This document shows positions 3,481 to 21,606 of a DNA stretch of 45,591 bases, piece by piece. The notes below the pieces were generated by a model. That model was not told where the DNA came from and searched no databases. It was given only the letters and a program-made list of their open reading frames with translations. Within the stretch, counting starts at the first letter, position 1, and each line of letters begins with the position of its first letter. Origin of the DNA: a virus; IMG/VR virus record IMGVR_UViG_3300036832_000582, positions 1 through 45,591 of that record; one strand, written 5' to 3'. A program made the translations under genes and the position numbers.

Positions 3481-3864
3481 ATGCACAAGACCCGCACCGC
3501 AATCGAGCTGTTTCACGAGTACAAGCTCGACTACGAGGCCGCGCTGGAGCCGTGCGTGTTCTGCCTGTTTGAGAAGTGCCCCGAGGAGGAGCGCGACGAG
3601 CTGAACGCGCTGCTTGAGGTGTGGTCAGACGACGCGCCGGGGCCGCCGCTGTCGCCAGTGCAGATACGTCGCCTTGAGCAGAAGATGGCACCGATCGTCG
3701 AGCGCGTGATGGCCGATCCGGGCGTGATGGCGGCCGAGGATCAGCGCGCGGCAACATGGCGCGACACGCCGTGGTGGCGCAAGGCCTACCGGCGCGCTCG
3801 CTTCCGCGCTTTCGTGTGGAAACTGCGGCTCCAAGGGCTGGGTCGGCGCAAGCCCTGGGAGTAG
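3481..3864 (+). CDS. Hypothetical 127-aa protein with CxxC pair
   Basis: ATG chosen because CGACCGAGGAGGG sits directly upstream. The N-terminal part has EPCVFCLFEKCPEEE, a cysteine cluster that could bind metal. The middle is helical, and the C-terminus is strongly basic (WWRKAYRRARFRAFVWK...GRRKPWE). Basic tail plus cysteines suggest nucleic-acid or membrane contact, but no family is recognised. No copy of the dyad promoter lies in the 90 bases upstream; that gap instead holds two short perfect hairpins (3394-3408 and 3423-3436). Confidence 0.65.
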   Translation: MHKTRTAIELFHEYKLDYEAALEPCVFCLFEKCPEEERDELNALLEVWSDDAPGPPLSPVQIRRLEQKMAPIVERVMADPGVMAAEDQRAATWRDTPWWRKAYRRARFRAFVWKLRLQGLGRRKPWE

Positions 3865-3879
3865 CCTGCCTGGCGTCGT

Positions 3880-3966
3880 ATGGGGCGCTGCTACTCCTTC
3901 CTGCAGTTCGTGTGCGTGTTCGGGACCTTCGCGATGGTGCTGTACGGCTGCTCGCACCTGAGCTAG
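3880..3966 (+). CDS. Possible 28-aa lipobox-like micropeptide
   Basis: ATG to TAG, MGRCYSFLQFVCVFGTFAMV then LYGCSHLS. One hydrophobic segment (residues about 5-22) ends in LYGC, which fits the lipobox pattern L-x-(G/A)-C, leaving only four residues after the cysteine. Such tiny lipoproteins resemble bacteriocin-release/lysis peptides in design. The ribosome site is weak and chance is possible, so this is tentative. Confidence 0.3.
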   Translation: MGRCYSFLQFVCVFGTFAMVLYGCSHLS

Positions 3967-3997
3967 CTCGTCCTGGGCTGCCGGTAGCGTTCAAGGC

Positions 3998-4077
3998 GGC
4001 GGTATGGAGCAGCGGCAGCTCGCCGGGGTCCCCGGCCGGACCCCGGAGGTCGTCGGGTTCGAGTCCCACTGCCGCCC
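3998..4077 (+). tRNA. tRNA-like gene with enlarged anticodon arm
   Basis: Acceptor stem GGCGGTA (3998-4004) pairs fully with TGCCGCC (4070-4076), one pair being T-G. The D arm is GAGC/GCTC (4007-4010, 4018-4021) with a 7-nt loop. The T loop is TTCGAGT (4058-4064), but the T stem has only 3 of 5 pairs. The segment between D arm and variable region is 24 nt instead of the usual 17: an 8-bp stem CCGGGGTC/GACCCCGG around an 8-nt loop. Read with a 5-bp stem, T33 is followed by CCC, so Gly(CCC) is possible, but isotype is uncertain. CCA is not encoded. It may be a diverged, intron-bearing or non-translating tRNA-like RNA. Confidence 0.5.
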
Positions 4078-4081
4078 ACCT

Positions 4082-4104
4082 TAGCGCTCGATGTGTGCTA
4101 CAAT
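4082..4104 (+). promoter_or_regulatory. Dyad promoter P2
   Basis: TAGCGC (4082-4087), 7-nt spacer, GTGCTA (4095-4100), -10 box TACAAT at 4099-4104 with extended TG. It is the only copy not followed by a start-associated sequence and an ATG within about 100 bases; what follows is the structured region to 4757. Confidence 0.75.
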
Positions 4105-4106
4105 GA

Positions 4107-4757
4107 AGGCGAAGGGGAAAGGGCAAAGGGCCGAAAGGGCCCAGTCCGCACGCCAGACCTGAGTCAGTTCGATCGGAGCGTCAGCGAGAAATCCGGGAGA
4201 CGTCCCGCGTGCCTTCCTCTTCAGCCCCCACGGGGAGCCGAACAATCTTTCAAAGCTACTGGCCCAGGACACGGGCGCGCGGTCACGCTAGTTCGCCGCG
4301 CGGGCAGGTTCGAATCCTGTCCCACCCCGCCAGTGTGGCTGCGGTCACCTTGAGCGTGCAAGGCCCGAGGGTCGCGCTGGCGGGACGTGCTTCCGGGACC
4401 GCTTAGTCCCCAGGCGCACCGAGCAGGTGCGAAACCTCCCGCTCCCATTGGGAGAGTCTCCGGGCGCGAAAGCGAAACGAGCGGTCCTGACCAGCTTGGC
4501 AACTTGGGTTGCCAGCAGACTTGCCGGTGGTAGACGGCATGCCAAGCCCGCGAGAAGCGAGGGCCTCTGGTGAAGTGGGTACGGCTCGTCGCTCAAGCCA
4601 GGTGGGTCACATCCCCAGGCCTAGCCAAAGGACCCCGGGCAGCTACCCCTCAAAGGCTGCCCACGCCTTAGCGCGTGATGAAAGTTTCGCTAAGTGCGGG
4701 GAGCGCTCAAGTCTGGAGCTAGTCGACTGAGCCTCCCGGTGCTTAGTATGCGCGGCG
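4107..4757 (+). ncRNA. Candidate large structured noncoding RNA locus
   Basis: About 650 bases start just after dyad promoter P2 and contain no reading frame with a ribosome site or protein-like composition. Many stable hairpins are visible: GGGCC/GGCCC at 4128-4142; CGCGCGG/CCGCGCG at 4276-4302; GGGAC/GTCCC at 4395-4410; CGCACC/GGTGCG at 4415-4431; CTCCC/GGGAG at 4442-4454; GGCAAC/GTTGCC at 4498-4513 (extended by GCT/AGC); and GGGCAGC/GCTGCCC at 4637-4662. CGC-GAAA-GCG near 4465-4474 has a GNRA tetraloop. A tRNA T-arm plus CCA end lies at 4303-4332. Large ornate phage RNAs such as GOLLD and ROOL also sit beside phage tRNAs and have this size, but I cannot test homology. A tRNA cluster too diverged to read, or a group I intron, are the alternatives. 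Confidence 0.45.
4303..4332 (+). other. tRNA 3'-half-like segment with encoded CCA
   Basis: GGCAGG, loop TTCGAAT, CCTGTC, then CCACCCC, G and CCA: an intact T arm, the 3' strand of an acceptor stem, discriminator and CCA. The matching 5' strand would be GGGGTGG, and I cannot find it in the preceding bases. It could be a tRNA remnant, part of the structured RNA, or the core of an attachment site copied from a host tRNA gene. Confidence 0.4.
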
Positions 4758-4970
4758 ATGCCGAGGATTGAGAGGTATGCCGTGGGAGTTGCCGAGATCG
4801 ACGCCATGATGGCGGCGGGCGTCCCGTTTGAGCGGATCGAGGCCGAGATCGAGCGCCTGCACGCGCACGACGACGTCAAGTCTGCGCTGTGGCTGTACGC
4901 GTGGACGGAGTCCGACCGGGCCACCCGCCGCCGCGCCGTGGCCGAGATCATCGCCGGTCTCAGTTCCTAG
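4758..4970 (+). CDS. Hypothetical 70-aa helical protein
   Basis: ATG start without a clear ribosome site. The protein is short, charged and alpha-helical throughout (EIDAMMAAGVPFERIEAEIE) with no Cys. No family recognised. It follows the structured RNA region and is separated from the next operon by dyad promoter P3. The coding call rests on length, composition and fit between regulatory elements. Confidence 0.5.
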   Translation: MPRIERYAVGVAEIDAMMAAGVPFERIEAEIERLHAHDDVKSALWLYAWTESDRATRRRAVAEIIAGLSS

Positions 4971-4973
4971 TCT

Positions 4974-4996
4974 TAGCGCTCATCGTGTGCTATCCT
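4974..4996 (+). promoter_or_regulatory. Dyad promoter P3
   Basis: TAGCGC (4974-4979), 7-nt spacer TCATCGT, GTGCTA (4987-4992), -10 box TATCCT (4991-4996). The 5' leader after it contains an imperfect repeat (GTGGGCCAAGAGGG and GTGGGCCAGAAGAG) and ends in the start-associated sequence at 5040-5050. Confidence 0.78.
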
Positions 4997-5039
4997 TGTA
5001 GGTGGGCCAAGAGGGTCCGCAGGTGGGCCAGAAGAGCCC

Positions 5040-5050
5040 CGACCGAGGAG
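5040..5050 (+). promoter_or_regulatory. Start-associated sequence CGACCGAGGAG
   Basis: Perfect copy, ending six bases before ATG 5057. It fixes that ATG as the start of the small zinc-ribbon-like gene. Confidence 0.75.
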
Positions 5051-5056
5051 CACGAC

Positions 5057-5221
5057 ATGAGCCGCAACTACGGCACCGCAGTCCGCCAGCCGCCAGGTTT
5101 CAACAGCGCGCCGACACAGCCCGTGTGGGCCCCCGTGCGGATGAGCGACGAGATCTGGTGCGAGCAGGCCGGGTGCCCCAAGCGCGAGTGCGTCGCCTGC
5201 AAGGCGGCAGCCCATGACTAG
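5057..5221 (+). CDS. Small cysteine-motif protein (54 aa)
   Basis: Start set by the perfect start-associated sequence. The protein ends in a cysteine cluster, WCEQAGCPKRECVACKA, with four Cys spaced like a treble-clef or zinc-knuckle site. The N-terminal half is Pro/Gln-rich and probably flexible. Small zinc proteins in phages often bind nucleic acid or host enzymes, but the target here is unknown. Overlaps the next gene by eight bases. First gene of the P3 operon. Confidence 0.65.
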   Translation: MSRNYGTAVRQPPGFNSAPTQPVWAPVRMSDEIWCEQAGCPKRECVACKAAAHD

Positions 5222-20764: not shown

Positions 20765-21145
20765 ATGGCGCTGCTGCTCACCGGTCCGTGGAAGATCAAG
20801 CGCGGAGCCACCTCGCCGCCCTACCACGTGACGCTGCGCCAGGCGGACAAGAACCCGGTGGATCTCAGCCAGGCCGATCACGTCAACTTTGTGATGCGCC
20901 TGCGCGGGGAGAACGACCCGACCGTCGATGCGCTGGCGGTCACGATCCAGGAGGGTGACGCCGAGACCGGCACCGACGTCGGCGTCTGCGAGTACGACTG
21001 GGTCCGGGGCGACACCGACGTCAGCGGGATCTACGACGTCGAGTTCGCGCTCTATGACGTCAACGGCGAGGTGTACGCCCGGGTCCCGAACGACAGCTAC
21101 CTTGAACTTCAAATCCTTGGGAACCTGTCGGCTCCACCGCCATGA
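20765..21145 (+). CDS. BppU-like N-terminal / tail-accessory protein
   Basis: 126 aa, probably from a leaderless mRNA. The sequence follows the pattern of the N-terminal domain of phage upper baseplate proteins: KIKRGATSPPYHVTLRQADK, NPVDLSQADHVNFVMRLRGE, then VCEYDWVRGDTDVSGIYDVE and a final YARVPNDSYLELQI. Such domains are Ig-like beta sandwiches that attach receptor-binding parts to the tail. Family call is by recalled pattern. The stop overlaps the homing endonuclease start. Confidence 0.62.
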   Translation: MALLLTGPWKIKRGATSPPYHVTLRQADKNPVDLSQADHVNFVMRLRGENDPTVDALAVTIQEGDAETGTDVGVCEYDWVRGDTDVSGIYDVEFALYDVNGEVYARVPNDSYLELQILGNLSAPPP

Positions 21146-21606
21146 CGAGCGAGGCCGAACTCGCCTACTTTGCGGGCTTCTTCGACGGCGAGGGTTGTGT
21201 TGGTATCAACCCTGTCTCAAAGGCTGGCGGGGTTAGCCGCTACTACTGCCTTTACGCCACCGCTCGGCAGATCGACACCACCCCGCTCCAGATGCTCAAG
21301 GAAGCTTTCGGTGGCTGTATTCAAGGACCCCACAATGCCTCCGCAACTAAGCGGGGCACCTATTCGTGGCGTGTGCAGGCGGCGCAGGCAGAGCAGTTCC
21401 TGGTAGCGGTCTTGCCGTACCTGGTAGTCAAGCGGGCCCAGGCCGAGCTTGCCTTGGAGTTCCGCCGAACCTTCCACCGGGGGGAGATCCTCCCGAAGGG
21501 CAGCACCCACGCAGGGAATCCTGCGCGGCGTCATGCAGTCATGGAACGGCGCGAGATGTGCTACCGGGAGATGAGAGCGCTCAACAGGCGCGGTCCCCGC
21601 CCGTAG
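21142..21606 (+). CDS. Free-standing LAGLIDADG homing endonuclease
   Basis: 154 aa, ATG overlapping the previous stop. The signature LAYFAGFFDGEGCVGI (residues 7-22) is a clear single LAGLIDADG motif, whose last acidic residue in FDGEG binds the catalytic metal. Downstream sequence fits the fold: RYYCLYATARQIDTTPLQML, FGGCIQ, and a C-terminal GRRHAVMERREMC-type helix. With one motif it should act as a homodimer. It cuts intron- or gene-free alleles and spreads by gap repair. The gene is lower in GC than its neighbours in its first 200 bases, suggesting recent transfer. No intron is visible around it. Confidence 0.85.
   Translation: MTSEAELAYFAGFFDGEGCVGINPVSKAGGVSRYYCLYATARQIDTTPLQMLKEAFGGCIQGPHNASATKRGTYSWRVQAAQAEQFLVAVLPYLVVKRAQAELALEFRRTFHRGEILPKGSTHAGNPARRHAVMERREMCYREMRALNRRGPRP

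Follow-up and report, generated by a model that had tools for sequence, protein, structure and literature searches.

The window analysed here, a 45.6-kb virus record from IMG/VR taken over its full length, belongs to a phage with a contractile tail, whose tail sheath was found. Between the genes at 3481-3864 and 4758-4970 lie, in this order, a tRNA-like element (element 1, 3998-4077), a promoter-like site (4082-4104), an orphan body of about 560 nt (4105-4667) and a 3' block (4664-4757), all on the plus strand. The downstream gene on the same strand, called gene 4758 here, is a small ORF of 70 amino acids that is conserved in seven relatives, and the GTG at 4782 is its more likely start. A sequence-only reading of this DNA had taken the interval for a large structured RNA transcribed from its own phage promoter, either a member of GOLLD or ROOL, a new family, a group I intron or a decayed tRNA cluster.

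The promoter family and the noncoding stretch

The site at 4082 belongs to a family of the form TAGCRC-N7-GYGCTA, a dyad that leads into a -10 element of the type TANNNT. Searching both strands of the window with the motif TAGCGCNNNNNGTGTGCTA and up to three mismatches gave 20 matches at about 10 separate sites, where 3.6 matches were expected and none of 100 shuffles reached 20. The motif is also present in about ten further IMG/VR contigs. Every other copy in the window with a good -10 element has an RBS and a gene 30-64 nt downstream, and this placement ahead of genes suggests that sites of the family act as promoters. The copy at 4082 departs from this rule, as 681 nt separate it from the next gene. 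Its imperfect 19-nt dyad (4082-4100, TAGCGCTCGATGTGTGCTA) runs into the -10 element TACAAT at 4099-4104, and the RNA would start near 4110. The sequence-only reading had described a perfect dyad promoter; the promoter-like site was confirmed, as part of a family far above chance, but the arms, TAGCGC and GTGCTA, have one mismatched position.

The same reading had the promoter lead a long noncoding stretch with no credible gene, beside a tRNA-like gene, and all of this held. No ORF within 4101-4757, or elsewhere between the genes at 3481-3864 and 4758-4970, shows the strong GC3 signature of the genome, the Pfam search of the ORFs in this interval gave no match above the cut-off, and the first RBS-led ORF past the promoter begins at 4782. 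The noncoding stretch, which has a GC content of 66%, and its promoter are real.

The tRNA-like neighbour, element 1, lies outside the noncoding stretch; it was called by ARAGORN and scored 34.5 bits with RF00005, for which the cut-off is 29. It has counterparts at L007 2796-2898, L060 3030-3130 and L061 3428-3545, and among the four phages the D-arm region is invariant and the T-arm nearly so, whereas loop lengths vary and the anticodons assigned by ARAGORN differ or are absent. In the four-phage alignment, the stem is extended by 8 bp in place of the anticodon loop, and the extension shows three compensatory pairs as well as two mismatches. As a lead from these four sequences, element 1 appears to be a conserved tRNA-shaped element unable to decode, possibly a tRNA mimic, and it, not the noncoding stretch, may be the stranger feature of the locus.

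The variable slot upstream of gene 4758

Relatives were collected by IMG/VR scans with the flanking proteins, the promoter, the tRNA-like element and gene 4758. Gene 4758 is carried by seven of them (G001, G002, G007, G013, L066, L067 and L069), and the stretch proved to be a mosaic: its last ~90 nt are the conserved upstream region of gene 4758, and its middle ~560 nt are an accessory insert. The 3' block aligns with G001, G007, G013 and G002, the identity to G001 being 78% over 4679-5008, and it is found also in phages without the body. The body itself (4105-4667), which has neither a coding signature nor an Rfam match, is absent or different in the seven relatives, and no homologue of it was found among these seven loci, in the IMG/VR scans or in related records.

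What stands ahead of the 3' block and gene 4758 differs from phage to phage. In G001 the promoter is followed by gene X, element 1 and a terminator-like hairpin, and in G002 by gene X, each time with the 3' block and gene 4758 next in order. L066, L067 and L069 are without the cassette (L067 covers only 300 bases upstream), and the slot is short or empty in all relatives other than G007 and G013. At this locus these two carry tRNA-Glu(CUC), with the same promoter ahead of it. The order in G007 is element 1, a hairpin, the promoter, a leader, tRNA-Glu, a small ORF, a terminator-like block, the 3' block and gene 4758. G013 has the same order minus the small ORF and plus an opposite-strand HNH endonuclease gene (L061 2840-3232) between the leader and tRNA-Glu; the slot attracts mobile genes as well.

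Between G007 and G013 the leaders show clear homology, whereas the window body aligned with them no better than shuffles did. One longer comparison of the body with the two cassettes, equalled by 6 of 200 shuffles, was not accepted. Because the body is not alignable to theirs, it is by position only that the window cassette and the cassettes of G007 and G013 may be one shared cassette. The locus is a variable slot in an uncultured contractile-tailed phage lineage, in which one promoter may drive exchangeable noncoding and tRNA cargo.

The homologous leader sequence behind the promoter spans ~140 nt (L060 3186-3332 in G007, L061 3236-3375 in G013), and six pairs are changed on both sides in a two-sequence fold; this stretch ahead of tRNA-Glu is a candidate structured leader. 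Two smaller features were seen in the upstream region of gene 4758. At 4700-4720, and at the equivalent place in relatives, there is what resembles a degenerate version of the promoter dyad that lacks a -10 element, and there is also a small palindrome, which in relatives reads CTCGC-N5-GCGAG.

A tRNA 3' half inside the body

The body contains the 3' half of a tRNA at 4304-4332, comprising a T-arm with the consensus loop (GCAGG-TTCGAAT-CCTGT, 4304-4320), an acceptor 3' strand (CCCACCCCG, 4321-4329) and CCA (4330-4332). None of 2000 shuffled versions of the body had a perfect T-arm with a correctly spaced CCA, and perfect T-arms by themselves came to 0.14 per shuffled window. Over 40 nt, this half is ~86% identical to the 3' halves of a tRNA-Cys from a Prescottella plasmid and of tRNA-Asn from mycobacteriophages; nucleotide searches of phages and plasmids returned tRNA 3' halves as the only matches. 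Viral contigs matched by the T-arm pattern turned out to be unrelated tRNA arrays.

What may survive of this tRNA's 5' half (4231-4303) is weak. The tRNA-Sec model RF01852 matches 4232-4328 with 15.5 bits (E 1.5-6.9) against a cut-off of 47, and an alignment of the 5' half with the 5' part of tRNA-Cys was equalled by 53 of 1000 shuffles and not accepted as proof. Searches with ARAGORN and RF00005 for a complete cloverleaf, D-arm and anticodon arm included, called 3998-4077 only and nothing in the body.

We favour, with a probability of about one half, a promoter-led tRNA cassette with degenerate tRNA content that is probably read into gene 4758. A noncoding accessory cassette would sit as an insert between element 1 and the 3' block and be transcribed from the ordinary phage promoter at 4082-4104. 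In two relatives this slot, with this promoter, would deliver a phage tRNA-Glu. The window cassette, in which neither a protein gene nor an intact tRNA was found, would have kept a tRNA 3' half amid degenerate or rearranged sequence. Because the terminator scan of 3800-5100 gave no terminator-like site ahead of gene 4758, the RNA would probably continue as a roughly 680-nt leader of that gene; the same scan missed the terminator-like hairpins of G007, and the read-through is therefore not firm.

The decayed tRNA cluster, one of the options of the sequence-only reading, fits best, with tRNA-Glu in the slot of two relatives and a significant tRNA 3' half here. The locus resembles phage tRNA clusters (tRNA islands) also in its own promoter, in the position of the slot between small ORFs and in the HNH gene that one relative carries as a passenger, but the window cassette has no canonical tRNA and includes ~560 nt of orphan sequence. 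Points against the tRNA cassette are the lack of alignment between the body and the cassettes of G007 and G013, the weak 5' half, a 15-bp hairpin in which the supposed acceptor end is buried, an odd arrangement for a tRNA, and the neighbouring element 1, which is conserved and not decaying.

Alternative readings of the body

The interval could instead encode a noncoding RNA, structured and functional, from a new family: a discrete transcript with its own promoter that serves, for example, as a scaffold or cage as GOLLD and ROOL do. We consider this unlikely. The promoter, the 681 nt without a gene and the adjoining tRNA-like gene suit such an RNA, as do the embedded tRNA part, which GOLLD linkers sometimes hold as well (PMC12286853), and two significantly folded segments. 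These segments account for the low fold z of the whole 656-nt stretch (-2.98). One is a 59-nt hairpin at 4326-4384, the sole strongly folded part of the body (z = -3.06 for the fold of 4326-4445), which overlaps the acceptor and CCA end of the 4304-4332 element and can sequester it; the other is the 3' block (4664-4757, z = -3.35), which also precedes gene 4758, as part of its upstream region, in phages that lack the RNA. When the whole record was scanned for folds in 606 windows, each of 150 nt, 4276-4425 ranked 6th and 4651-4800 ranked 35th, whereas the remaining 150-nt windows of the region had z from -0.7 to +0.4, so that most of the body folds like shuffles. The many stable short hairpins, including a GNRA loop, on which the idea of an ornate RNA had been built are not above chance, because sequence of 66% GC gives these, and only the two windows stand out. 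Dense hairpins in GC-rich DNA should therefore not be read as evidence for an ornate RNA.

Membership in a known family was not borne out either. The Rfam scan of the window gave no family at threshold, and at E ≤ 10 the window and its sub-stretches gave only chance matches and weak tRNA-Sec matches. Searched at E ≤ 10 across four relatives as well as the window, the GOLLD covariance model (RF02032), which covers the conserved 3' region, matched nowhere, and no control genome was above the cut-off. The 574-position ROOL model (RF03087) likewise had no match at E ≤ 10 in the same sequences, a weaker search in which no positive control was recovered. With GOLLD, the locus shares the size, the phage setting near tRNA-like genes and the embedded tRNA part (PMC12286853); it differs in that the universally conserved 3' region of GOLLD was not found, in having little excess folding and in its lack of homologues. 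The likeness to ROOL lies in size and in the phage setting near tRNAs, against which stands the missing covariance-model match. For a group I intron, the proposed P7 between GACT (4517-4520) and AGTC (4721-4724) is a 4-nt match only. The model of the intron core, P3-P9 (RF00028), gave no match at E ≤ 10 in these sequences either, with controls recovered in 8 of 14 genomes, and the empty slots of relatives show no interrupted gene or tRNA. What survives of the sequence-only interpretation is a promoter-led noncoding stretch beside a tRNA-like gene.

A body without a homologue in the seven related loci also counts against a new RNA family. It is comparably doubtful that the ~560 nt of the body form a discrete, functional structured RNA from a phage family not described before, an own-promoter cassette with a captured T-arm/acceptor module. 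As a possible new functional RNA, it has the promoter and one strong hairpin as its positive evidence, and no more. A functional orphan body would mean a new large RNA in phages, one that carries a tRNA module within it. A rearranged tRNA cassette is more likely than a new giant ornate RNA.

A second alternative, to which we give somewhat less credence, is a long 5' leader that controls gene 4758 in cis, in which the tRNA part is either incidental or serves in sensing or processing. The 3' block folds well and is the conserved upstream region of this gene, and the terminator scan of 3800-5100 gave no terminator-like site between promoter and gene. Against a regulatory leader, every relative has gene 4758 without such a long leader, and in G001, G007 and G013 a strong hairpin block separates the gene from the upstream units.

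More improbable again is a working but highly unusual tRNA at about 4231-4332, with insertions in the D-loop and the anticodon loop, that would be processed from the transcript. The full T-arm, the acceptor 3' strand and CCA are in place, the fold includes plausible anticodon-like and variable-arm hairpins, and the neighbouring element likewise has an altered anticodon arm. However, neither ARAGORN nor RF00005 gives a call, the tRNA-Sec score is far from its cut-off, the 5' acceptor strand is mispaired and the 5' half is not significant, all of which suggests tRNA content that is degenerate rather than working. Very improbable is an attP site carrying the 3' end of a host tRNA: att cores are commonly tRNA 3' halves and the segment is similar to actinobacterial tRNA 3' ends, but a search of 84,980 bacterial and archaeal species found no genome with an identical 27-nt 3' end, and the segment follows a promoter, in a slot occupied by tRNA genes in relatives.

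Two further observations lie outside the slot. An ORF of the LAGLIDADG endonuclease type at 21142-21606 has a Pfam score just under the cut-off. In the AT-rich phage contigs L025 (11236-11412, minus strand) and L029, a tRNA gene appears to be split, with ~110 nt of inserted sequence separating its anticodon arm from its T-arm, in a tRNA array behind a similar promoter-like site.
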